Source: Enterobacter ludwigii
GTDB taxonomy: Bacteria > Pseudomonadota > Gammaproteobacteria > Enterobacterales > Enterobacteriaceae
Assembly (NCBI GenBank): GCA_900068845.1
Contig: CEFQ01000004.1
Location: 124,159 to 188,158 of the forward strand
Length of the DNA: 64,000 nucleotides
Direction of reading: 5' to 3'
The notes below the pieces were generated by a model. The model was not told the DNA's origin, searched no databases, and saw only the letters and a list, made by a program, of their open reading frames with translations. Below are positions 2,300 to 55,467 of this stretch, in pieces. The first letter of the stretch is position 1. The number at the start of each line of letters is the position of its first letter. The position numbers were made by a program, and so were the translations under genes.

Positions 2300-4625
<2,326 letters not shown>

Positions 4626-5249
4626 TTAACACGCACCGTTGCGCCGGGCGAGTTCGATGATATCAACCAGATTTTTCGACTCAAGCTTTTGGAATATTTT
4701 TGTTTTATAAGTACTAATGGTTTTATTATTTAATCCCAGCTCGAAAGCGATGATTTTATTTGATTTCCCCTGTGCTAATTGTCGTAAAATCAAATGTTCA
4801 CGATCCGTCAGGCGAGAAAGCATGTCTTGCTCATTCGCATAACGCTGACGTTTATCCAGAATATCGCCCGGTAGATAATTCACGTTGTTAGATACGCATC
4901 CAATAGCGGCGATCAGCGTTTGAATAGGATCGTATGTAGACACGAAGCCATTAGCTCCCTGACTAAGCGACTGTATAGACAAATGATTATTACCGCCCTG
5001 GCTTATCAGGATCACTTTCATCCATGTTTTTGATTTAACGATATCACGTAAAAATGCGATGCCATTTTTTTCTTTAAAGTCAGGGTCTAATATGAGTATG
5101 TCGATGTGATGATGAATGATATCATCAATTCCATCGTTAATTGTGTGCGCTGTAGTGACACAATTAAAACCATTCATTAATAATAAAGCCTGCACGCCGG
5201 CGGCAACCAAACGATGCTCATCAACGATGAGAATTTTTGCATTAAACAT
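4626..5249 (-). CDS. LuxR/NarL-type response regulator lacking the conserved receiver lysine
   Basis: This is a 207-residue two-domain regulator. The receiver domain (about 4-120) has the acidic pair VDEH, the phospho-acceptor in LILDPDF (Asp55) and Ser83 in the Thr/Ser position. The invariant lysine after beta-5 is missing: the usual GFVSK reads GFVSTY, so Thr105 replaces Lys. The C-terminal LuxR-type HTH (about 143-200) has the usual LTDREHLILRQLAQGKSNK stretch and should bind DNA. It lies 99 bp downstream of the hybrid kinase on the same strand, so it is the likely partner. The layout resembles evgAS/bvgAS but in reverse gene order. The lost lysine suggests altered or phosphorylation-independent output. 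Confidence 0.88.
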   Translation of the reverse strand: MFNAKILIVDEHRLVAAGVQALLLMNGFNCVTTAHTINDGIDDIIHHHIDILILDPDFKEKNGIAFLRDIVKSKTWMKVILISQGGNNHLSIQSLSQGANGFVSTYDPIQTLIAAIGCVSNNVNYLPGDILDKRQRYANEQDMLSRLTDREHLILRQLAQGKSNKIIAFELGLNNKTISTYKTKIFQKLESKNLVDIIELARRNGAC

Positions 5250-20506: not shown

Positions 20507-22819
20507 ATGGTCGACCAGAAGCAGGATGCTGTGGAGCAGGATGCGCGTTCTGTTGCTCGTATTGAAACCACGGTGGATGACACGCTGTTAAAAAGCGTGG
20601 CTTGGATCTGCAAACACTATAAACGCGATAAAAGTGAAGAAGCGCTGGTGGCAGGTTTGCCTAAGGCCACGTTGCTTTCCCCATCACAGGCCATGACAGC
20701 GCTGGAAAATGCGGGCATTACCGGCGGTATGGTAGAGCGTCGTCTGCAGGATCTGCCGGAACAGTTGATGCCGATGATTCTGTTACGCAAAGAGGGCGGC
20801 GGCTGCATTGTGCTCTCGCGCCGCATTCACACTAATGAGGAAAATCAGCGCGAATTACGTTTTCAACTGGTGATGCCAGAAGTGAGCGCCTCTGCAGTAG
20901 AGATGAGCCTGGCAGAACTTAATGAAATCTATGCCGGCTTTGCCGTGATGGCGAAACCCACAGCCGTGGTTGATGAGCGCGCCAGTGAAATGCTGCCGGA
21001 AGTTAACGGTCATTGGCTGTTTACTACGCTGTGGCGCTATCGCCGGTATTACCGCAGCGCTGCGATTGCGGCGGTATTGATCAACGTCCTGGGCCTTTCC
21101 AGCATCTTCTTCACCATGAACGTCTATGACCGCGTAGTGCCGAACCAGGCATTCGTAACACTGTGGTCATTGGCGATTGGTGTCACCATTGCCATGGTCT
21201 TCGAAGCCGTCACCCGTTTCGTGCGTGCGCATCTGCTGGACATGGCCGGTAAAAAGGCTGATTTAGTGCTCGGCAGCATGCTATTCCGCCAGGCGCTCTC
21301 TATTCAGATGGAGCACAAACCGGCTTCCTCGGGTACGTTTGCCAACCAGATTCGTGAGTATGAATCGGTGCGTGATTTCGTGGCCTCCGCCACGCTGGCG
21401 GCGATCTCTGATTTGCCCTTCATCCTGATGTTTGTCGGCGTGATCTTCTTTATCAGCGGTCCGCTAGCGATCATTCCGCTGATGATGATCCCGTTGATCA
21501 TCATCGTCAGTGCCGCGATCCAGTGGCCGCTGGCGCGCATCATGAAAGAGAACCTGCGTGATGCCTCACTCAAGCAAGGTGTGCTGATTGAGTCGGTTGA
21601 AGGTATGGAAACGCTGAAGGGGGTAGGCGGCGAAGCACACATGCAGCGCCGCTGGGAAAACTTCAGTGCATTGCAATCAGCTAACTCAATGAAATCGAAG
21701 CGTTACTCCACGCTGGCAACCGGCGTAGTGACGTTCCTGCAGCAGTTCCAGACAGTGATGTTGGTGGTTGCCGGTGTTTATCTGATCAATGAAGGCACGT
21801 TCACCATGGGTGCGATGATCGCCACCGTGATGCTCGCCAGCCGCGCCACCGGCCCACTCGGTCAGGTGATTGGTCTGGCTGTACGTTATCAGCAGGCAAA
21901 AGCGGCATTAACCTCGCTCAATAAGCTGATGGAGATGCCTGTTGATCGTGACAGCAGCAAAACCTATCTCACCGATCCACCGCTGAGTGGTGAGATCACG
22001 CTGACCAACGTCAACTTCTCCTATCCGGCACCGCCGATGAAACCGAATCCGGAGATTCTCAAAGATATCTCGTTGAGCATCAAAGCCGGAGAACGCGTAG
22101 CGATTCTAGGCCGCATCGGTAGCGGTAAATCCACCTTATTACGTGTGATGGCACGTCTTTATCAACCGGTGAAAGGGCAGCTTTCGGCCGATGGTCTGGA
22201 TGTTAACCAGATTGATCCAGCGGACTGGCGCAAAGCCGTTGGTTTTGTCGGCCAGGATGCGCGCCTGTTTTACGGCACGCTGCGTGAAAACGTGATGATT
22301 GGGCGCCCAGATGCGACGGCCAGTGAGCTGCTGCGCGTGCTAAATCTGACCGGTTTAGATCAAGTCGCTGCACGCCATCCAAGTGGCATCAATTTAACCG
22401 TAGGTGAGGGCGGTGAAGGCTTGTCCGGCGGTCAGCGTCAGCTGGTTTCACTGGCAAGAACGCTGCTAACGCGTCCCAAAGTATTGCTGATGGATGAGCC
22501 GACCAGCGCGATGGATAGCATGACTGAAAACCAATTCCTCGCCCACTTACGTCGTGCCAGTGAAGGACACACGCTGATTGTAGTGACGCATCGTCCGTCC
22601 ATTCTGGCGCTGGTTGACCGCATCATCGTGGTTGAGGAAGGAAAAGTGGTTGCGGATGGCCCGAAAGAGCAGGTTCTGGCCGCGCTGGAAGGCAAAAATA
22701 AAGCGCGTCCGCAGCCGCGTCAGGCGGTTGAACAGGCAGTTCGTCCGCCAGAACCCGCAAACGATGCTTCGGCGGCGTCAGCGCCAGCAGAAGCCCCAGC
22801 AGAGGAGGCTGCAGTATGA
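20507..22819 (+). CDS. Type I secretion ABC transporter, permease/ATPase (LapB-like)
   Basis: This is a 770-residue inner-membrane exporter. The N-terminal ~140 residues are a C39-like domain without the peptidase cysteine, as in adhesin exporters that recognise an uncleaved C-terminal signal. Six membrane helices follow (about 175-440). The nucleotide-binding domain has Walker A GRIGSGKS (about 535), signature LSGGQRQ (about 639) and Walker B LLMDEP (about 660). The ATG at 20507 is preceded by AGGAG; an upstream GTG at 20459 is less likely. An Ala/Pro-rich tail ends the protein. It overlaps the adaptor gene by ATGA. Confidence 0.92.
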   Translation: MVDQKQDAVEQDARSVARIETTVDDTLLKSVAWICKHYKRDKSEEALVAGLPKATLLSPSQAMTALENAGITGGMVERRLQDLPEQLMPMILLRKEGGGCIVLSRRIHTNEENQRELRFQLVMPEVSASAVEMSLAELNEIYAGFAVMAKPTAVVDERASEMLPEVNGHWLFTTLWRYRRYYRSAAIAAVLINVLGLSSIFFTMNVYDRVVPNQAFVTLWSLAIGVTIAMVFEAVTRFVRAHLLDMAGKKADLVLGSMLFRQALSIQMEHKPASSGTFANQIREYESVRDFVASATLAAISDLPFILMFVGVIFFISGPLAIIPLMMIPLIIIVSAAIQWPLARIMKENLRDASLKQGVLIESVEGMETLKGVGGEAHMQRRWENFSALQSANSMKSKRYSTLATGVVTFLQQFQTVMLVVAGVYLINEGTFTMGAMIATVMLASRATGPLGQVIGLAVRYQQAKAALTSLNKLMEMPVDRDSSKTYLTDPPLSGEITLTNVNFSYPAPPMKPNPEILKDISLSIKAGERVAILGRIGSGKSTLLRVMARLYQPVKGQLSADGLDVNQIDPADWRKAVGFVGQDARLFYGTLRENVMIGRPDATASELLRVLNLTGLDQVAARHPSGINLTVGEGGEGLSGGQRQLVSLARTLLTRPKVLLMDEPTSAMDSMTENQFLAHLRRASEGHTLIVVTHRPSILALVDRIIVVEEGKVVADGPKEQVLAALEGKNKARPQPRQAVEQAVRPPEPANDASAASAPAEAPAEEAAV

Positions 22820-24057
22820 GTAAGTTGATGCCGTGGCGTAAAAGTGCAAAGAACCTTTCTGCCGCTGATGCGGAGTTTATGAACGACGTGCAGGCTTCTT
22901 TGCTGTCGCAAACCACGCCCGGTTCGAAGCTGGTGATGTGGATCATCATTGCTGTCCTCGTGGGCGGATTGACCTGGGCTAATTACGCGCGTGTTGAAGA
23001 GATAACGAAAGGCGATGGCAAAGTCATTTCACGCAGTCGCGAGCAGGTTATTCAGAGCCTGGAAGGCGGGATTCTGGCGGAAATGAATGTGCGGGAAGGC
23101 ACGGTTGTCGATCGCGGTGAGGTATTGCTAAAGATCGATCCTACTCGTGCGCAGTCCAGCTATCGCGAAGTCTTGAGCAAAGTGGTGGGCTTGAAAGGTA
23201 GCATTGCACGTCTGCGTGCAGAAGCCTATTCACAGCCACTTTCCTTTGATGAGCAGGTGAAAAGCGATCCCGCTGTTGTTGCCCAGGAAACCAAAGCGTA
23301 TGAATCACGCAAGCGCGCGTTAAATGACAGCATTACCTCATTACAACGTAGCTATGCGCTGTCAATGCGCGAGATTCATTTGGCGGAACCGCTGGCGGCA
23401 AAAGGTTTGCTGTCGGAAGTCGAGCTACTGCGTATGCAGCGTCAGGCGAACGATATTCAGGCTCAGATTGTTGAACGACGTAACCGCTATCAATCTGACG
23501 CTCATACCGAGTTAGGTCGCCTGGAATTAGAGCTGAGCCAGGTGAGCGAAAACCTGATTGGTCGTGCCGATATCGTTGATCGCACCACGGTCACTGCACC
23601 CGTGCGCGGTACGGTTAAAAACGTGCGTGTAAATACCATTGGCGGCGTTATTCAACCCGGTGAACACATTCTCGAAATCGTACCGCTGGAAGAGCAGCTG
23701 CTGGTGGAAGGAAAAATTCGGCCATCGGATGTCGCCTTCCTGCGTCCTGGTCTGCCGGCCAAAGTGAAAATCACCGCTTATGACTTTGCCATTTATGGTG
23801 GGCTTGATGGACATGTTGAGTACATCAGTCCAGACACCCTAAAAGACGATCAAAAAGCCGCGAGTGGACGTCCAGACGATACCTACTATCGCGTATTGAT
23901 CCTGACCGATAAAAGCACGCTGCATGCGGGTAATAAAGATCTGCCGATCATACCCGGCATGATCGCTACCGTTGAAGTGCGCACGGGTGAGAAGACCATT
24001 CTCGATTACCTGTTGAAGCCGGTCCTGAAAGCCAAAGAAGCATTCCGCGAGCGTTAA
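22816..24057 (+). CDS. HlyD-family type I secretion periplasmic adaptor (LapC-like)
   Basis: The 413-residue membrane-fusion protein has a short cytoplasmic N-terminus, one membrane helix (about 38-58), long alpha-helical hairpins (about 110-240) and split lipoyl/beta-barrel halves (VIQSLEGGILAEMNVREG; VTAPVRGTVKNVRVNTIGG). It should bridge the inner-membrane ABC transporter and the outer-membrane channel. Its ATG overlaps the stop of the ABC gene (ATGA), indicating translational coupling. The outer-membrane gene starts five bases after its end. Confidence 0.92.
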   Translation: MSKLMPWRKSAKNLSAADAEFMNDVQASLLSQTTPGSKLVMWIIIAVLVGGLTWANYARVEEITKGDGKVISRSREQVIQSLEGGILAEMNVREGTVVDRGEVLLKIDPTRAQSSYREVLSKVVGLKGSIARLRAEAYSQPLSFDEQVKSDPAVVAQETKAYESRKRALNDSITSLQRSYALSMREIHLAEPLAAKGLLSEVELLRMQRQANDIQAQIVERRNRYQSDAHTELGRLELELSQVSENLIGRADIVDRTTVTAPVRGTVKNVRVNTIGGVIQPGEHILEIVPLEEQLLVEGKIRPSDVAFLRPGLPAKVKITAYDFAIYGGLDGHVEYISPDTLKDDQKAASGRPDDTYYRVLILTDKSTLHAGNKDLPIIPGMIATVEVRTGEKTILDYLLKPVLKAKEAFRER

Positions 24058-24062
24058 TAATC

Positions 24063-25913
24063 ATGAAAAATAATAACAAGATGCGCCACGCAAAGGCGCG
24101 TCATCTCTCTTTGCTTGCCGTTTGTGTCGCGGTTGTCATGGCGCCTGCGATCAATGTCATGGCTGATTCCACCAGTGAGCTGATGATGTTTGCGGAGATG
24201 AGCGGCCAGCGCCCGGCCGCTCCGGCGGCGGCATCGATAAAGCCAGTGCGAACTCAACCTTTGCCGGTTGCTGCTCCGGCAGCGCCTGCAGCGCGGCCAA
24301 TCTTTGTTGAAAGGCAAGTGCCTGCACCGGTGGCCTACAGTGCTGCGCCGGTTCAGCCAGCAACGCCACCCGTTTCTCCGCCTGCGGTGGTAGACGTTTC
24401 GCCGCAACGGGTCAATGTCGAGCAGCCCGTTCAGATCAAATCCAGGCCGACTCAGCCCGCTGAGACGCAGGGCGGAGGCTTCCTGACTGAAGAGCAGCGT
24501 CGTCCACAACCCCAGCCGTTTAATCCGATGCAACCGGCGCTTAAGGTAAGCCCACCGCAATCTGCGTCAACGGCGACTTATGCGCCAGCAGAAAGCTCAA
24601 CGTCGGATTTCAAATATGTTAGCCAGCCAGTAGCCGATGCGGCAGTGAAGCTTTCGCCTGTAACCTTGAGCGGAACAGCCAATGAAACGGTGGCTGAGAG
24701 CGAAGTACGTCAAAAGTTTCTCTCAGCAGCACGCATCACCTGGCGTATTAGCCCGTCGTTAAAGTCTTATATCGCCCAAGGTGATGCGGCTGAAGCCAGC
24801 GTTGATGAAGCTAAAGGGCAACGCTGGCCGCAGGTTGACGTCAGTGCAGCTTCCGCGACCAAGGAGTTTGGTAGCGGGGCTAAAAACTATGAATATCAAG
24901 GTAATAAGCCTTCGTTAGGCGTTTCGGTAGCAACCAATCTTATCGATTTTGGCCAAACCAGCCGTACTATTGAAAGTCGCGAAGAGCGCGTTACGTCTGC
25001 ACTGCAATCAGTGCAGGCACAGCGTGAAGATTTGGCGATGCAGGTCAGTAATGCATTGATTGAGTGGAATAAACAGCAGCACGTCATTGCAATTAGCAAG
25101 CAGTATCTGGCGCGTATGGCGGAGCTGACCAAAATGCTCAGCGGTATTGTTCAGTCAGATACCGGACGTCGCAGTGAACTGACGCAGGCAAAAGGGCGCT
25201 TGTTGCAAGCACAAAGCTACCTGGAAAATGCCGAATCACGCGCACGTGATGTCGAAATCACTCTGAATCGTTTGATGGGCAACAGTCGTGTGACTTTACC
25301 GGCCAGCGATAAGTGGTCGCTTTCCTTTGGTGATTTAAATCGCCAGCTCGCGAGTCTGGATGTGCATCCGCTGATCTTGCGCGCCAGCGCCGAAGAACGA
25401 GCGGCTTTCAAAGAAGCGGAAGCGATTAAAGCCTCGGGCTTACCAAAACTGAACTGGACCGTCAGTAAAAACACGCGGGAAGATCAATACGGACGCCAGC
25501 CTGCATGGCAAACCGGGCTGAACGTCTCCTGGGGTTTATTCCGTGGCGGTTCAACCAACGCACAAGAAATTGCTGCGATTAAACGGGCTGAAGCGAGCCG
25601 TCAGCAGGTGCAGGAGCAGCGCCGCGATCTGGAAAACCGTGTGCGCGCAGCAAGTCAGAATGCACACTCAACAGCGGAACGCGCCGTATTGTACAAAAAC
25701 CTGATTGTGGAATCCGATCGTATACGTAAGGACTTCTTCGATCAGTGGTATCACTTAGGCCGCCGTTCATTGCTGGACGTACTGAGTGCAGAAAGCGATC
25801 TTTACAACAACCAGGTTAGCGAAGTTACTAACCGTTTTGATAGTTATGCCGCCATTATCAGCGGTTATGCTAACTCAGGAACGCTAAGCCGTTGGCTACT
25901 GACGGGAAAATAA
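24063..25913 (+). CDS. TolC-family outer-membrane channel of the type I system (LapE-like), Pro/Ala-rich N-terminus
   Basis: The protein has 616 residues. A signal peptide (about 1-35, ending MAPAINVMA) is followed by a ~190-residue Pro/Ala/Gln-rich, probably disordered segment. The OEP/TolC channel domain covers roughly 215-605, with helical repeats (DLAMQVSNALIEWNK; VSWGLFRGG). TolC-type channels are usually about 450-500 residues, so the N-terminal extension is unusual. It is the last gene of the three-gene secretion operon and is followed by a strong terminator. It is distinct from the housekeeping tolC found later in the window. Confidence 0.9.
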   Translation: MKNNNKMRHAKARHLSLLAVCVAVVMAPAINVMADSTSELMMFAEMSGQRPAAPAAASIKPVRTQPLPVAAPAAPAARPIFVERQVPAPVAYSAAPVQPATPPVSPPAVVDVSPQRVNVEQPVQIKSRPTQPAETQGGGFLTEEQRRPQPQPFNPMQPALKVSPPQSASTATYAPAESSTSDFKYVSQPVADAAVKLSPVTLSGTANETVAESEVRQKFLSAARITWRISPSLKSYIAQGDAAEASVDEAKGQRWPQVDVSAASATKEFGSGAKNYEYQGNKPSLGVSVATNLIDFGQTSRTIESREERVTSALQSVQAQREDLAMQVSNALIEWNKQQHVIAISKQYLARMAELTKMLSGIVQSDTGRRSELTQAKGRLLQAQSYLENAESRARDVEITLNRLMGNSRVTLPASDKWSLSFGDLNRQLASLDVHPLILRASAEERAAFKEAEAIKASGLPKLNWTVSKNTREDQYGRQPAWQTGLNVSWGLFRGGSTNAQEIAAIKRAEASRQQVQEQRRDLENRVRAASQNAHSTAERAVLYKNLIVESDRIRKDFFDQWYHLGRRSLLDVLSAESDLYNNQVSEVTNRFDSYAAIISGYANSGTLSRWLLTGK

Positions 25914-27058: not shown

Positions 27059-27108
27059 TCACTAAATTTGGTGGCCCCTGCTGGGTTTGAACCAGCGACC
27101 AAGCGATT
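27059..27108 (-). repeat. attL: 50-bp copy of the tRNA-Ile2 3' end
   Basis: Bases 27059-27108 are identical to 36743-36792. The repeat covers the last ~40 bases of the tRNA gene, including the CCA and the T-arm, plus 10 bases beyond. The anticodon arm and 5' half are absent, so this is not a functional tRNA. It is the expected footprint of a tyrosine-recombinase element inserted at a tRNA 3' end. Confidence 0.9.
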
Positions 27109-27138
27109 TTCAGTCCTAATTCAAAGCGATAAAAAAAG

Positions 27139-27235
27139 TAACTTACTGATTTTTATTGTTTTATTTAGGCCGAGTAGTGACGAGAAGTGGCACAGAGCGT
27201 TGCGCTCTGCTGCCACTTTGCTGCCATTGTATTGT
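27139..27235 (-). pseudogene. Remnant of the 3' end of an Imm-like cargo gene
   Basis: This segment is clearly similar to the 3' end of the gene at 29536-29973 (aligned with roughly 29522-29615). The minus-strand reading gives KVAAERNALCHFSSLLGLNK, against KVAAEYNVIQRFLSLIGLKK in the intact gene. Only about 30 codons are left. It indicates that the left unit once had a related gene between att and integrase, since replaced by the retron. Confidence 0.6.
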
Positions 27236-27319: not shown

Positions 27320-29041
27320 TTATTTCTTCGATTTATGATGATCAATTATTTCAATTATCGAGTCAAAAATTATTGAGAACTTAGAAAAATCAATCTTTTT
27401 TCTACGCTTCAATACTACGCCTTTAGCAAATGCCTCTTTACCATATTCGTTATCTTTACATTTGTTATTGGTTCTATTAAAAGTCTTTTTCGATAAAGTC
27501 TTTTTAAGGACGGATTCATCAAATAAATCCTCCATTGAACTTTCTTTTTCACCATTCAGGGGAGTAAATATAACATATAGATTTTTGGTAACCCAAGTCC
27601 ATTTCTCATTTCTGAGAGTGTCTTTTGAAGTTGTGACATTTGGGAATGAGTTACCTACCAGTGATTGAAAAATGCCGCCACCACCTGTACTTCCTGAATC
27701 ATTATCAAGTATCATGATTACAGGGCTTTCATGTGTTGATGTGGAGTATTTATTGCTCTTTTTATTATAGTTCAATAAAAAATCCCTAAGGTGGGTGCTT
27801 CCTCCATCGAGTTTAAGAAAGTATTTTGTTTTTATGCTATTTTTAAAAAATGAGATCTTGTAATCTCGGACATAAGATTTTTGTCCTTTTTTATCTCCGA
27901 TTAATGTTGGGTATTTTTCTGCTAGAGAGTCTAATGCAACTCTAAGATATGTAATATCTGTTTTCCCTTCTGTTAAAATAACTGGCTTTTCATTGGCGCA
28001 AAAGGATTTATAATAAATGAAATCGGAGTACAGCCGTTCTCTTTTGTTAAGGATGCCTTGATGTTGATGGGGTATTTTATTGTTGTGCTTATCAAGTGAG
28101 TCAATAAATCCCAGCATTCCAGTTAATTCATTGATTGAACCAGCTCTCTTTTGATTGGTTTGCTTATCGATCAAATGAAACTCGCCGGTTTTAAATAGGT
28201 TGTGAGTCATCGCTCGAACGTTGCGAGCATATGCATTACTAACATTCACCATTTTATTTACAGTTAAGCCAGTAACTTCTTGGCGACACTTTCTATCTAG
28301 TAGCCTTACCTTACTTAAGTTTAACGAAAAACCTGAATTCGTTATTTCTTTTAAAAATCTCCCATTTAAATTAATAGTGTAGCCTTCATGCGAGGTTATT
28401 ATTTGCTTTGGGAATTCGGATTTGTTTGTGGATATTGTTATATCATCAGCATATCGAGTGTATGTACACCCTGCTTTTTTTGATATTAAATTAAGACGTT
28501 GATCTAGTGAAAGTAAAATTAAGTTTGTAATCACTGGCGAGCAGGGGCTTCCTTGTGGGAGCCTGTTCTCATAACACGCAATTTTTGATATTACATTGCT
28601 CACTTCCTCATTTAATTTGAAGTGATTATTTTTAATAAAGTATCCTCTTACACGACCAAAATTAAATTCATCAAAAAAGTTACTCAAATCTAAATTAAGT
28701 ACCCATTTTTTTCTTTTATGTTTCTCTGCATTAGTAATTATGCTTCTTTCTCTTTCGAATCCGTGTGACAAATTGTTTTTAATATTCAATGATTTTCGGA
28801 TGTCGGCTAAGCAATCTTGAAGTAATTCGGATAGTCTTCTTTGGATTTCTTTTAGTTCAGGATCAGGAGAAGATATGGTTCGATCGTAACCATTTTTCTT
28901 TTTGATGCAAAAATCAGTGTATAGTTTTTCAGTATTTCTAATGTATACGACACGAGTAAGAAAAACAGGATTAATTCCCAAGAGTCGAGCAAGATCAGGT
29001 TTAGATTTACAGTTTTGTAATTTTTCTAGGCGAGTTTTCAT
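27320..29041 (-). CDS. Retron reverse transcriptase fused to a TOPRIM domain (Ec67/Eco2-like)
   Basis: The enzyme makes msDNA from the adjacent retron RNA. The protein has 573 residues when started at ATG 29041, which has AGGAG eight bases upstream; the Ec67 enzyme is 586. The RT core has NLDLSNFFDEF (Asp about 118), LPQGSPCSP (about 163), catalytic YADD (about 197-200) and the retron VTGLTVN motif (about 256). The C-terminal ~215 residues are a TOPRIM domain, with TEGKTD (Glu about 358) and LDNDSG (about 446-448), the layout of type I-C retrons. The final part (SSMEDLFD; KRRKKIDFSKFSIIFD) also matches Ec67. It follows the RNA gene on the same strand. Very AT-rich. Confidence 0.93.
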   Translation of the reverse strand: MKTRLEKLQNCKSKPDLARLLGINPVFLTRVVYIRNTEKLYTDFCIKKKNGYDRTISSPDPELKEIQRRLSELLQDCLADIRKSLNIKNNLSHGFERERSIITNAEKHKRKKWVLNLDLSNFFDEFNFGRVRGYFIKNNHFKLNEEVSNVISKIACYENRLPQGSPCSPVITNLILLSLDQRLNLISKKAGCTYTRYADDITISTNKSEFPKQIITSHEGYTINLNGRFLKEITNSGFSLNLSKVRLLDRKCRQEVTGLTVNKMVNVSNAYARNVRAMTHNLFKTGEFHLIDKQTNQKRAGSINELTGMLGFIDSLDKHNNKIPHQHQGILNKRERLYSDFIYYKSFCANEKPVILTEGKTDITYLRVALDSLAEKYPTLIGDKKGQKSYVRDYKISFFKNSIKTKYFLKLDGGSTHLRDFLLNYNKKSNKYSTSTHESPVIMILDNDSGSTGGGGIFQSLVGNSFPNVTTSKDTLRNEKWTWVTKNLYVIFTPLNGEKESSMEDLFDESVLKKTLSKKTFNRTNNKCKDNEYGKEAFAKGVVLKRRKKIDFSKFSIIFDSIIEIIDHHKSKK

Positions 29042-29064: not shown

Positions 29065-29195
29065 GGTGTGCAGGCACTCCTATGCACTTTGATATTACTC
29101 TAAGCAGATATAGCTATGAGAATCATAGCGGGCGAGATTTCCTGCCATTTAAATCAAGAATTGCGAAACACAATTCAAAAATCTGCCTGCACACC
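29065..29195 (-). ncRNA. Retron msr-msd RNA gene (Ec67-like)
   Basis: On the minus strand, a1 GGTGTGCAGGCA (29184-29195) and a2 TGCCTGCACACC (29065-29076) form a perfect 12-bp inverted repeat that bounds the RNA. After a1 comes a GATTT segment and a stem GAATTG-tgtttcg-CAATTC. Ec67 has an equivalent hairpin with a near-identical loop here. A second stem begins GGCAGGA, again as in Ec67. The msd part holds a 7-bp hairpin (29113-29129). The RT start follows 23 bases after a2. The branching G is likely the base just after a1, by analogy. Confidence 0.88.
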
Positions 29196-29263
29196 TTTAA
29201 TGAATATTTCACAAGTTATTCGAACTTTCAAGATTGTCCTCAAGAAAATATTTGATTTAGTGG

Positions 29264-29499
29264 ATTAAGTGTCAGTGCTTCCAGTAAATGTTCTGGCGAG
29301 AAGTGTGCATACCGCATCGTAACCTTAATATCTGTATGCCCCAGTTTCTTCTGAAATACGAGAATATTGCCCCCGTCCATCATGAAATGAGAGTAAAAAG
29401 TGTGGCGCAAAACATGCGTTAACTGCCTAGCAGGTTTCTCGATGCCGGCGCATTGTATGGTCTTTCTAAAAGGCTGAATAGCATGGTTTAAAGAGCCTC
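29264..29499 (-). pseudogene. Degenerate 3' fragment of a P2-type integrase
   Basis: About 235 bases are strongly similar to the last ~78 codons of the intact integrase (30595-30830), including the HxxR and final Tyr region. An extra A near 29470 shifts the frame, and the 5' three quarters of the gene are missing. It is the integrase relic of the left prophage unit and lies directly upstream of the retron RNA. Confidence 0.8.
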
Positions 29500-29535
29500 A
29501 CTTCGAAAAGATTGAAATAATTTACTTACTGATTT

Positions 29536-29973
29536 TTATCTTTTCTTAAGACCGATTAGTGACAGAAAGCGTTGTATGACGTTGTACTCTGCTGCCACTT
29601 TGATGTCATTTCTCTTGCTATTGGAAGCTGGGTATATCCTACTTTTGGGATCGTATTGCCAAGCATCTGAAGTTTCATATATCGTGCCATCGTCATCCAT
29701 TACCTTCGCGTTCAGCTTCTGAGATATTTTGAGCATTTTACGGTAGAGTGGGGTTGGCGGCCATTTAGTGCTAATGTTACCTTCCGACCATTCAAGCCAG
29801 TCTTCTCCATCTGATCCCTCACCATTCCATATAGTATGAAATTCACCGCTTATTTGGGAAAGACTAAGTTCGGGATCGTTATTTATGATATCTAACCATT
29901 CATCAGAACTGATTTGGTCATCATCGTTTTCAGCCCAATATTCTGCTCGTGTGATATGAAACTCTACGCCCAT
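29536..29973 (-). CDS. Unrecognised Imm-like protein, cargo of the right prophage unit
   Basis: The 145-residue acidic protein starts MGVEFHITRAEYWAENDDDQ and has no signal peptide or membrane segment. Its N-terminal pattern and composition resemble small immunity-type proteins, but I cannot assign it to a named family. It lies four bases after the next upstream gene (29978-30568) and is probably co-transcribed with it. Related 3' sequence occurs at 27139-27235. No toxin gene is adjacent. Function unknown. Confidence 0.7.
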   Translation of the reverse strand: MGVEFHITRAEYWAENDDDQISSDEWLDIINNDPELSLSQISGEFHTIWNGEGSDGEDWLEWSEGNISTKWPPTPLYRKMLKISQKLNAKVMDDDGTIYETSDAWQYDPKSRIYPASNSKRNDIKVAAEYNVIQRFLSLIGLKKR

Positions 29974-29977
29974 ATTG

Positions 29978-30568
29978 TCATTTCCGCTTAGTCAAGATAG
30001 ATAGCCAATCTTCGTTAATTAGTACTCGGTAGTAAGGTTCGCACCATTGCTTTACATACATCATCAATTCGTCATCACTCATGCTTGAGGCTCGTGAATT
30101 GAATATAGGTATAGCTTCATCATAAAGATCCCAATATAAATTGGATAATAGGCTCGCTATTTTCGCGAAAGACCGAGGTGAGTAATCTGAAAAGTAATAA
30201 TGAATGAAAATTTCTAGTCTTCTTTCAATTTCTTTAGAAGACGCTGGATGCATTAGGTACTGAATTTGCATCCTTAACCACACTAACGCACTATAATCAG
30301 AATGTGGGTTTTTTATATCATTTTCGAGCTGGTAAATTCCTAAATACCTTTCTATTTCATGGCGGTCAGGTATGGGATCTAAATTCAACGATGCCAAAAT
30401 GAGAAGGGTGTCTGATTCTCTTCCTGCCAAGACTGCTCTTTCAGCCCACTCTGTTATTGCTTTATAGAAACCATCAAGGCCTATTACATGAAACGTACTA
30501 CTAAATACCTTGAAGCAAAGAAGTTCTTTAAGTGCTAGATCATCATGTCGAGCTTCCTTTTCCATCAT
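29978..30568 (-). CDS. Unrecognised 196-residue protein between integrase and Imm-like gene
   Basis: The predicted protein is soluble, helix-rich and acidic to neutral, with no signal peptide or motif I can name. A central stretch (EIERRLEIFIHYYFSDYSP; FAKIASLLSNLYWDLYD) suggests helical-repeat or immunity-like folds, but this is only an impression. It lies 26 bases downstream of the integrase on the same strand and four bases before the Imm-like gene, so the pair may be one functional unit carried as prophage cargo. AT-rich coding sequence points to transfer. Confidence 0.68.
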   Translation of the reverse strand: MMEKEARHDDLALKELLCFKVFSSTFHVIGLDGFYKAITEWAERAVLAGRESDTLLILASLNLDPIPDRHEIERYLGIYQLENDIKNPHSDYSALVWLRMQIQYLMHPASSKEIERRLEIFIHYYFSDYSPRSFAKIASLLSNLYWDLYDEAIPIFNSRASSMSDDELMMYVKQWCEPYYRVLINEDWLSILTKRK

Positions 30569-30594: not shown

Positions 30595-31584
30595 TCACAT
30601 CGCTTCAGACAAATGGTCGGGAGCAAAGTGCGCATACCGCATTGTAACCTTAATATCTGTATGCCCCAATATCCGCTGAAGTACAAGAATATTACCCCCG
30701 TTCATCATGAAATGAGACGCGAAGGTGTGGCGCAAAATATGGGTAAGCTGCCCAGCAGGTGTCTCGATGCCAGCGCGTTGCATGGCCTTTCTAAAGGCTG
30801 AGTAACAAGGTTTAAAGAGCACCTGCGCTTTCCTACTGGATGGCAGTTCAGCCTGTAATTTTTCAGTTATCGGCACCGCGCGGTTTTTCTTGCCTTTAGT
30901 TTTCACGTAGATGATCTGACCGGAGCGGATTTGGTTTCCTTTCAACCCTTCTGCCTCACTCCATCGTGCGCCTGTTGCCAGGCAGATTTTCACAATAGCC
31001 GTCAGATCTTTAGATCGGCTGTTCTCACATTCGGCAAGGAGTGTTCTGATTTCTTCAATGGTGAGATAAGCCATCTCTGATTCACTGATTTTAAACTCGC
31101 GCACGTTCTCCAAAGGATTTGGAGGGGTCCATTCATCCAACCGGCGCAATTCGTTAAACATCGCCCTGAAATACGCCAGCTCTAAATTGACCGTGCGAGG
31201 TGTAACCGTCTTCACTCGAGTGGAGCGGGTGATCTTCCCGCTTAACCGCTGCTCGCCGTAAGACGCAAAAATTTTCGCGTTAAACTCGGTTGCGAGTGGG
31301 CTTCCCATAGCCTCGCAGGCGAACGCCATTGTGGTTCGCCGCTTCTCACCATCCGCCAACGTAATGCCATGCGTGTTGAACCACAATTCAACCAGCTCAA
31401 TTACCCGCCGCTTATCCGCTTTCTCTCCTAGCCAGGGCTTATCTTGAGCCTGTTCTTTTAAGAACTTCTCGTAGGATTGTGCTTCGCCCTTCGTCGCAAA
31501 CTGGCGGCGAATCCTTTTGCCGTCACGGCCGTTTGGGAAAACCTGTGCCTGCCATTTCCCATTGGGTAATTTGTTTATCGCCAT
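30595..31584 (-). CDS. int: P2-like tyrosine integrase
   Basis: The 329-residue site-specific recombinase aligns with the phage P2 Int family: MAINKLPNGKWQAQVFPNGR at the N-terminus and FKIS..MAYLTIEEI before the catalytic domain. All catalytic residues are present: Arg in TGARWSE, Lys in KTKGKKNR, HILRH, GHTD and the nucleophile Tyr in MRYAHFAP. It appears intact and probably catalysed insertion into the tRNA-Ile2 gene whose 3' copies bound the island. A repressor remnant lies just upstream on the same strand, as in P2 and 186. Confidence 0.92.
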   Translation of the reverse strand: MAINKLPNGKWQAQVFPNGRDGKRIRRQFATKGEAQSYEKFLKEQAQDKPWLGEKADKRRVIELVELWFNTHGITLADGEKRRTTMAFACEAMGSPLATEFNAKIFASYGEQRLSGKITRSTRVKTVTPRTVNLELAYFRAMFNELRRLDEWTPPNPLENVREFKISESEMAYLTIEEIRTLLAECENSRSKDLTAIVKICLATGARWSEAEGLKGNQIRSGQIIYVKTKGKKNRAVPITEKLQAELPSSRKAQVLFKPCYSAFRKAMQRAGIETPAGQLTHILRHTFASHFMMNGGNILVLQRILGHTDIKVTMRYAHFAPDHLSEAM

Positions 31585-32836: not shown

Positions 32837-33688
32837 ATGGATGACTCTGACATTATTCGTTTTAAGAAACAATTCATAAACGGCGGAGAAATACCCAGCG
32901 TGCTTGAATTGTTGTCTTTAAAATCATTATTTATAGAAATGTATTTCGATGAACTAAAATTAAGCTCCGGCACTGCATTTTTGGTTGCTAATGATAGAGA
33001 GTCACATTGTGCATTAGTTACAAATAGGCATAACGTCACTGGGAGAAATCAGGAGACTAATGAGTGCATGAGTGCTTCGTGCGCCATACCTAATTATATA
33101 GTTATACATTTTCATAAGGGAGAGGAACTTGGCAAATGGCTTAAAGTCAAACTTCCTCTTTATCGAGATGATGGCACACCGTTTTGGATTGAAGATCCAA
33201 TTCTTGGTGCTAGTGCAGACGTAGTTGCATTGAATCTAAATTGGGGAAGTGATGTCACGAAAATTCCATACTATATGAAAACAAATTTAGATCGTGATGA
33301 TTTGTATGTTGGGCCAGGTGATACTGTCAATGTCATTGGTTTTCCATTTGGGATTAGCACTTTTGGAAAGTTTCCGGTATGGGCAACAGGTTTTATGGCT
33401 CAAGAGTTATTGTTGATTACAAATGAGAAGCCAGTATTTTTAATTGATTGCAGAGCGAGAAAGGGGCAGTCAGGTTCACCTGTAGTAGCTTATAAGCCTG
33501 GGGGGTACAGGCAGTTTAAAGACGGAAAAATTCACTCAGTGATGTCAGGGACACCTAAGTGGGAGTTTCTAGGGATTTACAGCGGCAGAGTCAATAACGA
33601 GTCTGATTTAGGTATGGTATGGCATGTATCTGTTATAGAGAGAATATTAAATGCAGCAGAGAAAGATTACATAGATAGAGGTAATTAA
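32837..33688 (+). CDS. Trypsin-like serine peptidase, stand-alone cargo
   Basis: The 283-residue protein has a recognisable chymotrypsin-fold triad: His in ALVTNRHNV (about 63), Asp in GASADVVAL (about 117) and Ser in RKGQSGSPVV (about 214). The oxyanion glycine precedes the serine as expected. No signal peptide is seen, so the enzyme should be cytoplasmic, unlike housekeeping Deg proteases, and there is no PDZ domain. Stand-alone cytoplasmic trypsin-like peptidases occur in defence loci and phage cargo, but no partner is adjacent. A terminator follows at 33734. The AT-rich sequence differs from the core. Confidence 0.8.
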   Translation: MDDSDIIRFKKQFINGGEIPSVLELLSLKSLFIEMYFDELKLSSGTAFLVANDRESHCALVTNRHNVTGRNQETNECMSASCAIPNYIVIHFHKGEELGKWLKVKLPLYRDDGTPFWIEDPILGASADVVALNLNWGSDVTKIPYYMKTNLDRDDLYVGPGDTVNVIGFPFGISTFGKFPVWATGFMAQELLLITNEKPVFLIDCRARKGQSGSPVVAYKPGGYRQFKDGKIHSVMSGTPKWEFLGIYSGRVNNESDLGMVWHVSVIERILNAAEKDYIDRGN

Positions 33689-35463: not shown

Positions 35464-36498
35464 TTAATCATCTTTTTCAAATTTATAGTTGCAGTAACCA
35501 CAAAGACCATCATTAATTTGGTCGTCCTGATTAAGCGATTCGCCACAAAATTTACAATGATTATAATCTAATCCCTCTCCGCACCACCTACACTCCCGTT
35601 CACTAATTACAAACGTTCCATTGTCGCAACGTATACAATCTTCGTATGTTGGTTCATCCCCATCAGGAATCCAATAGAAATTTGCATTCTCAAAGGAATC
35701 AATTAAAATCGGTTTAAAATCTGCTTTGTATGAGCAGCTTATACATACGTATTTAAAATCATCGTTATATTCAACTTGGAGGCCTTCATCTAGACTTTCG
35801 TTACAAGCTTTTACCAACTTCGAACCGCATTCCTCGCAAATGCAGCCTGTTAAATATTCAGCCATGCCAACAGGAATACCAGCATCATCCCAAGATTTTA
35901 ATGACTCTTCTTGCTGCTGAAGAAAGAACGCATGATGTTTAAGCATTATTTCCCAATGTTGTCCTAATATTTCTGATGGGGATGACTTAAGTTCCTTTGT
36001 GATGAAATCTCTTATTACAGGGAACAAGTCAGCAACAAAGCTTGCAACCTCACCTAAAGTATTTTGTGGGTGAAGATGCTCCAAATGATTGCGACAGTCT
36101 TGAAGCTTATCAATAACTGCCCAGTTAACTTCAATTTCAAATTTATCAAATCGCTCCTTTATTCCCTGAATATCAATTGTTGTGGATTTAAATTTTCCTG
36201 CAGGTATCCACTCTATACCTCCTTCTCCGTCAGGATGAGGTAACACTTTTTGAGGGGGATTAAAGATTAATTTGTAGGCATCTTCATCTGATTCTACTGA
36301 AGTTGCGATTTTGTACTTAAAAAGGAGCAACATCCCTGCATAAAGATTTCTTACTGAAGAAAGCGCGCGAGAGGGGTTTCCTCCATCATCTTTACTTTTT
36401 TGAGATATTTGAAAATCCTCTAATCCAAGCTGAACTGAAATAATGGCATTATCGAACAGTTTGGCTGCGTCCAAAGTATTACTGCTTGCATTACTCAT
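35464..36498 (-). CDS. Unrecognised protein with HEPN-like motif and Cys-rich zinc-ribbon tail
   Basis: The protein has 344 residues. The N-terminal ~190 residues are helical and contain [20 protein letters not shown] and then [19 protein letters not shown] fits the R-x4-H signature of HEPN nucleases. The C-terminal ~130 residues hold repeated CxxC pairs ([35 protein letters not shown]), pointing to two or three zinc ribbons. This combination would suit an RNA-binding or RNA-cleaving protein, but the HEPN call is my inference. It is the first gene of a likely pair with the membrane protein at 34565-35392. Confidence 0.74.
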
Positions 36499-36700: not shown

Positions 36701-36726
36701 AAAAAAGCCACCTCGAAAGGTGGCTT
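36701..36726 (-). terminator. Terminator of the tRNA-Ile2 gene
   Basis: On the minus strand, AAGCCACCT-ttcg-AGGTGGCTT is followed by six T. It lies 27 bases after the tRNA 3' end. A variant copy lies left of the island at 27016-27042. Confidence 0.85.
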
Positions 36727-36742
36727 AAATGCATGAATTTAT

Positions 36743-36792
36743 TCACTAAATTTGGTGGCCCCTGCTGGGTTTGAACCAGCGACCAAGCGATT
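36743..36792 (-). repeat. attR: 50-bp repeat inside the intact tRNA-Ile2 gene
   Basis: Identical to 27059-27108. Here it forms the 3' part of a complete tRNA gene, so the incoming element restored the tRNA. Confidence 0.9.
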
Positions 36793-36828
36793 ATGAGTCG
36801 CCTGCTCTAACCACTGAGCTAAGGGGCC
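36753..36828 (-). tRNA. ileX: tRNA-Ile2 with CAU anticodon (lysidine-modified; ileX position)
   Basis: The 76-base gene includes an encoded CCA. On the minus strand it starts GGCCCCTTAGCTCAGTGG, has an anticodon loop CTCATAA between GCGA and TCGC, and the T-loop GGTTCAA. It matches E. coli ileX almost base for base and lies near mug as ileX does. It can be mistaken for tRNA-Met because of the CAU anticodon, but the acceptor and D-arm are those of the minor isoleucine tRNA that TilS modifies to read AUA. It is the insertion target of the island. Confidence 0.95.
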
Positions 36829-55039: not shown

Positions 55040-55215
55040 GATTATTTCCTGGTTACGGTGGCCGATAGCTGCGCGTGTTCGGACTCAATAGCTATTAAGT
55101 GTAATGCCTGAAACGAAAAGGTTAAACCTGAAATCCGCAACGCAGGAAATGCAAAAGCATTTGCACTTTTGTCGATTGCCCGACCAGATGATTGGCGTTA
55201 TAGTTTGTTCGCTTA

Positions 55216-55357
55216 TTCTCAGGGCGGGGCGAAATTCCCCACCGGCGGTAAATCAGCTTTAGCTGAAAGCCCGCGAGCGCTCTCACAGCAATGTGAAAGG
55301 TCAGCAGATCCGGTGTAATTCCGGAGCCGACGGTTAAAGTCCGGATGGGAGAGGGTA
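55216..55357 (+). promoter_or_regulatory. FMN riboswitch (RFN element) controlling ribB
   Basis: The classical RFN core is visible: an opening segment TCTCAGGGCGGGGCGAAATT, then CCACCGGCGGTAAATC, AAAGCCCGCGAGCG, a GGTCAGCAGATCCGGTG stretch, GAGCCGACGGTTAAAGTC and closing GGATGGGAGAG. All conserved junction pieces are present in order. A short stem CCGGGC-ttt-GCCCG (about 55369-55382) follows and may be part of the expression platform. High FMN is expected to lower ribB expression. Confidence 0.95.
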
Positions 55358-55467
55358 ACGACATCAGCCGGGCTTTGCCCGCGCGTCACGTTATTGCCAT
55401 GTGTTCTGTACGCACTCCTAAGCACGCCCTGGTTCTGGTAACTCATATTTTATAAGGTTTTTTTACC

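Follow-up and report, generated by a model that had tools for sequence, protein, structure and literature searches.

Introduction

The Toprim domain is reported to be the effector most commonly fused to retron reverse transcriptases (RTs), making up 37% of associations (PMC12405507), and Retron-Eco2 (Ec67) of Escherichia coli, a type I-C retron represented by PDB entries 9lm3, 9i2f and 9s1f, is such a fusion. According to the same report, msDNA assembles the RT-Toprim units of Eco2 into a trimer that inhibits itself, phages that escape are mutated in denB, and the Toprim domain, once freed, cuts RNA, an RNase activity that needs residues E374 and D378; tRNA is named as the target in another report (PMC12956279). 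The N320-R335 loop of Eco2 holds D331, R332 and Y333, and an R332A substitution leaves Eco2 without defence and its trimer partly impaired (PMC12405507). The Eco2 retron lies between cos and the packaging-gene terminator of a 186-like prophage, and its branch guanosine occurs in a CAGA context (PMC6868368).

Here we compare with Eco2 a locus found in 64,000 nucleotides of Enterobacter ludwigii DNA (contig CEFQ01000004.1, positions 124,159 to 188,158), which we call the window. The locus holds an intact retron of type I-C (Ec67/Eco2 family), which lies in the remnant of a P2-like prophage and likely serves in abortive-infection defence. We regard it as a new type I-C member and not a new kind of retron, and its lineage differs from Eco2 in two testable features, a short loop in the protein and a conserved hairpin in the msDNA.

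Results

The fusion protein. The coding sequence occupies positions 27320..29041 of the minus strand, running from an ATG at 29041 to a stop codon at 27322-27320, and specifies 573 amino acids; a start at the GTG at 29077 would make the protein longer, but this GTG runs into the a2 arm of the RNA gene described below. An RT domain of approximately residues 1-352 (27986..29041, minus strand), delimited by a Pfam RVT_1 match to residues 46-253 and by alignment with Eco2, is followed by a Toprim nuclease domain of approximately residues 353-573 (27323..27985, minus strand). RVT_1 was the sole Pfam match reported for the protein, with no match to a Toprim model. The RT domain has YADD at residues 197-200 (28453..28442, minus strand), and NAEKH (104-108), VTG (256-258), QGSPCSP and VTGLTVN are also present in the protein; NAxxH and VTG are motifs named for retron RTs along with YADD (PMC12405507). 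The Toprim domain contains EGKTD at 358-362 and DND at 446-448, and its residues E358, D362, D446, D448, S502 and E504 align with E374, D378, D460, D462, S513 and E515, the Eco2 catalytic residues named in PMC12405507. Six of the seven published catalytic residues are thus kept; under the residue numbering that suits these six, the seventh, K562 of that paper, corresponds to an Asp, and it could not be placed. A sequence-only reading of this DNA had recognized the 573-residue open reading frame and five of these motifs (YADD, QGSPCSP, VTGLTVN, EGKTD and DND), and the frame lies at the coordinates it gave; it had not given the strand, and it missed the msr-msd RNA gene at 29195..29065.

Assignment to the Ec67/Eco2 family, also proposed in that reading, is supported by PADLOC and NCBIfam models. 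The best PADLOC model is RT-Toprim_I-C (E 7.4e-215), and the four highest-scoring models are all RT-Toprim_I-C (712.7 to 541.7 bits), the next being RT-Protease_XI at 325.8, which places the protein with those of type I-C. The NCBIfam model NF038237 (retron_Ec67_fus), whose cut-off is 450 bits, gives a score of 688.7. Identity to Ec67 (PDB 9lm3) is 47%, or 263 of 559 aligned residues, a value that bears out the suggestion of clear divergence. The type I-C structures among the PDB matches listed are those of Eco2 only, and Eco2 entries rank first in a structure search with the predicted fold of the fusion protein; the predicted model, with a pTM of 0.59, differs from Eco2 by an rmsd of 13 Å over both domains. 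The Toprim fold is shared with the DNA-cutting OLD and Gabija nucleases (PMC12405507), and the domain could on that account cut DNA and not RNA, as they do. We regard this as improbable, because Eco2, the nearest solved relative, is an RNase whose activity depends on E374 and D378, both of which are kept here.

Comparison with the viral-contig relative L022 gave pN 0.088 and pS 0.676 (dN 0.094, dS 1.74), with the RT and Toprim domains alike, and against both L022 and the Pantoea allii homologue (L016) the two domains are under purifying selection, as judged from their coding sequences. Since synonymous sites are near saturation (dS 1.74, L022), the protein was evidently kept, and a recent loss of function would still be compatible with these rates.

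The msr-msd RNA gene. Directly upstream of the coding sequence lies a non-coding RNA gene (29065..29195, minus strand), identified by its folding, by covariation and with a covariance model. Its a1 arm (29184..29195) and a2 arm (29065..29076) form a perfect 12-bp pair (12/12 complementary). The predicted branch guanosine at 29183 stands in CAGA and aligns with rG15 of Eco2; an msr stem-loop follows at 29158..29176, as located by folding; and the predicted msd template of 69 nt (29078..29146), the ends of which come from the alignment with Eco2 (67 nt), terminates in UGGCAG, as at the Eco2 reverse-transcription stop (all minus strand). The CAGA branch site, the msr stem-loop and the terminal UGGCAG are thus shared with Eco2, and so are, in the protein, YADD, the six Toprim catalytic residues and the RNA contacts F44, R182 and H280. 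The msd itself differs, with 5 of 17 tip positions and 14 of 35 at positions 84-118 identical between the two.

The RNA gene folds with a z-score of -3.9, and none of 200 shuffles folds equally well. In an alignment of 22 ncRNAs, 96.6% of 438 cells are paired, compared with 29.5-47.3% in slid controls; 16 of 20 pairs have changed on both sides, with 92 compensatory cells, and on these three measures none of 500 shuffles reaches the real values. One of the five measures, that of further pair types, shows no excess, since 108 of 500 shuffles reach the same level. Five of the eight pairs of the msr stem-loop have changed on both sides in these 22 sequences, and its outermost pair is unpaired in ten of them. 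Across the 22 aligned sequences, compensatory changes occur in both helices of the RNA. The alignment leaves out L022 (its ncRNA is identical to that of L016), L004 (same locus as L016), L027 (its contig starts inside the gene) and L011 (without an ncRNA by the model).

The covariance model scores the window RNA at 122.9 bits, the window being one of its 22 training sequences, and gives strong matches in 28 of the 32 sources, with no RNA match at L011, L027, L029 and L034. L062 and L063, which are outside the training set and no near-copies of its rows, score 99.6 and 105.8 bits. The RNA gene is present in a single copy in its own genome. Among 394 sampled genomes of the order, the protein was found in 10 (E up to 1e-90) and the RNA in 9 (E up to 1e-4), all nine falling within the ten. 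No Rfam family matched the RNA gene at gathering scores, and below them there was one chance match, to rox1 (E 4.5). Folded whole as DNA, the predicted msDNA has a z-score of -1.1 (25 of 200 shuffles as good), and its tip hairpin does form. A weak promoter-like sequence, TTGAAA-17-AATATT, lies at 29203..29231 (minus strand); a scan for such sites found 8 against 9.8 expected in shuffles, which is not above chance.

The host element. On one side of the retron is the 3′ remnant of a P2-like integrase gene (29496..29240, minus strand), and on the other an attachment repeat that copies the 3′ end of tRNA-Met (27069..27115, plus strand; 96% over 47 bp), a position that differs from that of Eco2 in its prophage. 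The remnant was recognized by three-frame reading, and its DNA is 82% identical (247 columns) to the last part of a second integrase gene in the element, which encodes a full-length tyrosine integrase at 30595..31584 (minus strand; Int_N and Phage_integrase in Pfam, phrog_1). The intact tRNA-Met gene is at the other end of the element (36753..36828, minus strand), and 27016-27115 matches 36702-36799 at 89% over 100 columns. Another repeat pair, 27132..27228 with 29515-29610 (78% over 100 columns), hints that two elements are stacked here. The element, in which fragments of a repressor (C-terminal part) and of a baseplate gene are also found, is decayed, to judge from the integrase remnant, and the prophage-remnant setting recognized earlier from the sequence holds. 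The Pantoea affiliation given in that reading holds as well, as a same-genus genome has its locus at contig coordinates identical to those in Pantoea allii NZ_NTMH01000035.1.

Left and full tRNA-side flanks occur on one contig in 15 of 61 same-genus genomes, approximately 0.9 to 65.6 kb apart; the flank comparison found no empty site, the shortest flank-to-tRNA distance being approximately 0.9 kb (G046). In Pantoea allii LMG 24248 (L016; NZ_NTMH01000035.1) the integrase-retron-tRNA repeat order is that of the window (tRNA-Met, integrase, ncRNA, RT-Toprim, tRNA repeat), whereas the integrase is in two frames, the unit spans approximately 3.4 kb and no second stacked element is seen there. In the viral contigs L021 and L031 the integrase gene adjoins a gene for a replication-origin nicking protein (phrog_91).

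A decaying carrier raises the possibility that the retron is stranded, its genes intact and yet silent or no longer useful. The neighbouring integrase remnant, the repressor and baseplate pieces and the absence of a promoter above chance would fit such a state, and we nevertheless think it unlikely: RNA and protein are both intact and, within the limit that rates cannot date a recent loss, selection has acted on both domains. The earlier expectation of a functional retron finds support in the intact open reading frame, the catalytic residues, the covarying ncRNA and a dN far below dS, features of sequence from which we conclude that the retron is complete and probably working.

Other genes share the element. 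Candidate phage-defence proteins are encoded at 35464-36498 (minus strand; PADLOC PDC-S64, E 3.9e-39) and at 32837-33688 (plus strand; PADLOC PDC-S45, E 2.9e-17; Trypsin_2 in Pfam). The interval from the second integrase to the second repeat contains open reading frames of 145 and 196 amino acids (29536-29973 and 29978-30568, minus strand), which occupy the place by the second integrase that the retron occupies by the first; neither has a Pfam, PADLOC, NCBIfam or PHROG match, and a relative of the 196-residue frame is found at the same site in G023 (L038).

Relatives and distribution. Searches of genome_contigs returned five named relatives with 66-83% identity, and searches of viral_contigs returned seven loci, the patterns used being ones that reach close relatives only. 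Closest are the P. allii retron and those of viral contigs L021 and L022, which have 83% protein identity to the window and the same msd tip. Retrons of Prodigiosinella, Atlantibacter, Serratia and Chimaeribacter (L017-L020) have 66-74% protein identity, and 5 of 5,426 E. coli genomes carry near-copies of the Atlantibacter locus (L018; approximately 68% identity, three loci aligned). All of these have the same msd tip and, where aligned, the short loop; their carriers differ from that of the window, being genomic islands or stretches next to P2-type genes. At the Serratia locus (L019) a gene for a Cap4-nuclease/HamA protein, likely a defence gene, adjoins the retron (3327-4958, minus strand).

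In a tree of 28 proteins, confined to type I-C relatives, the window groups with L016 and L022 (99/97) inside a group of 10 rows (100/100), and a 12-row clade (95/95) adds the small-plasmid retrons of Providencia rettgeri (L002) and Proteus mirabilis (L061), leaving Eco2 outside; long branches flagged by the tree tool lie elsewhere, for example L003 with the Eco2 rows. The two plasmid retrons have approximately 48% protein identity to the window, and L002 differs from it in a1 (8/12) and at msd positions 84-118 (16/35 identical). Matches occur in 48 phage records and 189 plasmid records, all below 60% identity, with 80% of the query covered in one and 18 of them, respectively.

At E 1e-40, a type I-C match is present in 4 of the 61 same-genus genomes, and in two of these four it belongs to the window's lineage. 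Retron msDNA can have other uses: in an enteric pathogen it has been tied to gut colonisation (PMC4569332), and the msDNA or fusion protein described here might likewise serve its host otherwise than in phage defence, for example in regulation. We give this reading very little credence, since the fused nuclease, the mobile carrier and so patchy a presence fit defence better. Distant type I-C retrons in two same-genus genomes, L005 (G056) and L006 (G058), have 43 and 39% identity to the window protein, and an ncRNA accompanies each of them. At L011 (G094), an RT-Toprim gene of type I-C, with an RT 46% identical, has no upstream msr-msd detectable by inverted repeat or covariance model.

The short loop. 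Where Eco2 has 30 residues in the N320-R335 loop, the window protein has 14, approximately 16 fewer, and it lacks a counterpart of R332. Seven aligned close relatives also have 14, and L002 has 16. Because the distant type I-C relatives L005 and L013 likewise have a short loop, it is no mark of the type; because the Eco2 trimer loop with R332 is absent from the window, assembly of the complex may differ.

The palindromic msd tip. The 17-nt tip of the msd, GCTATGATTCTCATAGC (29113..29129, minus strand), is a palindrome that forms a hairpin with a 7-bp stem and, on the DNA strand, a GAA loop. It is identical at 17 of 17 positions in eight distinct ncRNAs of the lineage, the window included, compared with 29 of 52 invariant positions in the rest of the msd (permutation p 0.007 for eight sequences, some of which are close to each other); when L022 is exchanged for L026 in this set, mean protein identity among the eight is 75%. 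The a1 arm and msr stem-loop are invariant in the close set too, and are less kept in L002 (8/12 and 14/19). In L002 the tip is identical at 15 of 17 positions against 30 of 52 for the remaining msd (p 0.04), and the two changed positions face each other in the closing pair (A-T in place of G-C), by which the hairpin is kept. In the other 13 rows, tip identity is 2 to 7 of 17. We read this pattern in the aligned sequences as selection on the tip, which may be a phage sensor.

The tip was also considered as a phage operator. The exact 17-mer occurs in eight viral_contigs stretches, of which six are lineage retrons and only two (L029, L034) are not, so nothing indicates that it is a common operator. 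On its DNA strand, the tip (29113-29129) contains ATGAGAATCAT, which may resemble a Fur-box core, a likeness that we set aside. Literature on retrons in Pantoea and on type I-C, in titles and the starts of abstracts and with most subscription papers outside its scope, contained nothing on the window retron or its tip.

Discussion

From its likeness to Eco2 we infer that the locus directs msDNA synthesis, inhibition of the nuclease, a phage trigger, attack on RNA and defence. The RNA would fold by way of its a1 and a2 arms, and the RT is predicted to prime from the guanosine at 29183 and to copy approximately 69 nt into msDNA. By analogy with Eco2, the msDNA would keep the Toprim domain inactive within a complex until a phage activity damaged or bound it; the Toprim domain, once released, would cut RNA, perhaps tRNA, and translation would stop before the phage matured. 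As the window has the parts that the Eco2 mechanism needs, except the R332 loop, Eco2-like abortive infection is the most likely course of events, with an assembly and a trigger that may differ from those of Eco2.

The earlier reading had supposed that this retron might respond to different phage triggers, an idea that the lineage-specific msDNA tip and the missing Eco2 trimer loop turn into a sharper hypothesis. We put forward, tentatively, that the lineage is a separate type I-C branch which dispenses with the Eco2 trimer loop and uses its fixed msDNA hairpin as a dedicated sensor, triggered by a phage signal, of sequence or shape, other than the DenB nuclease implicated for Eco2. Because it stands well apart from Eco2 as a second branch, and combines a complete, covarying RNA and a frozen msDNA hairpin with the lack of the R332 loop, the lineage allows two questions to be tested directly: which part of the msDNA detects phage, and whether the trimer of Eco2 is a general feature.

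Defence-gene hotspots are known in P2- and P4-like elements (PMC9122126), and the stretch from integrase to attachment site is here a carrier position for a probable defence gene. Elsewhere in the window, an FMN riboswitch (RF00050, 121.8 bits) lies at 55211-55360 (plus strand), and two adjacent open reading frames at 22816-25913 (plus strand) appear by eye to encode a putative type I secretion membrane-fusion protein and a TolC-like protein.
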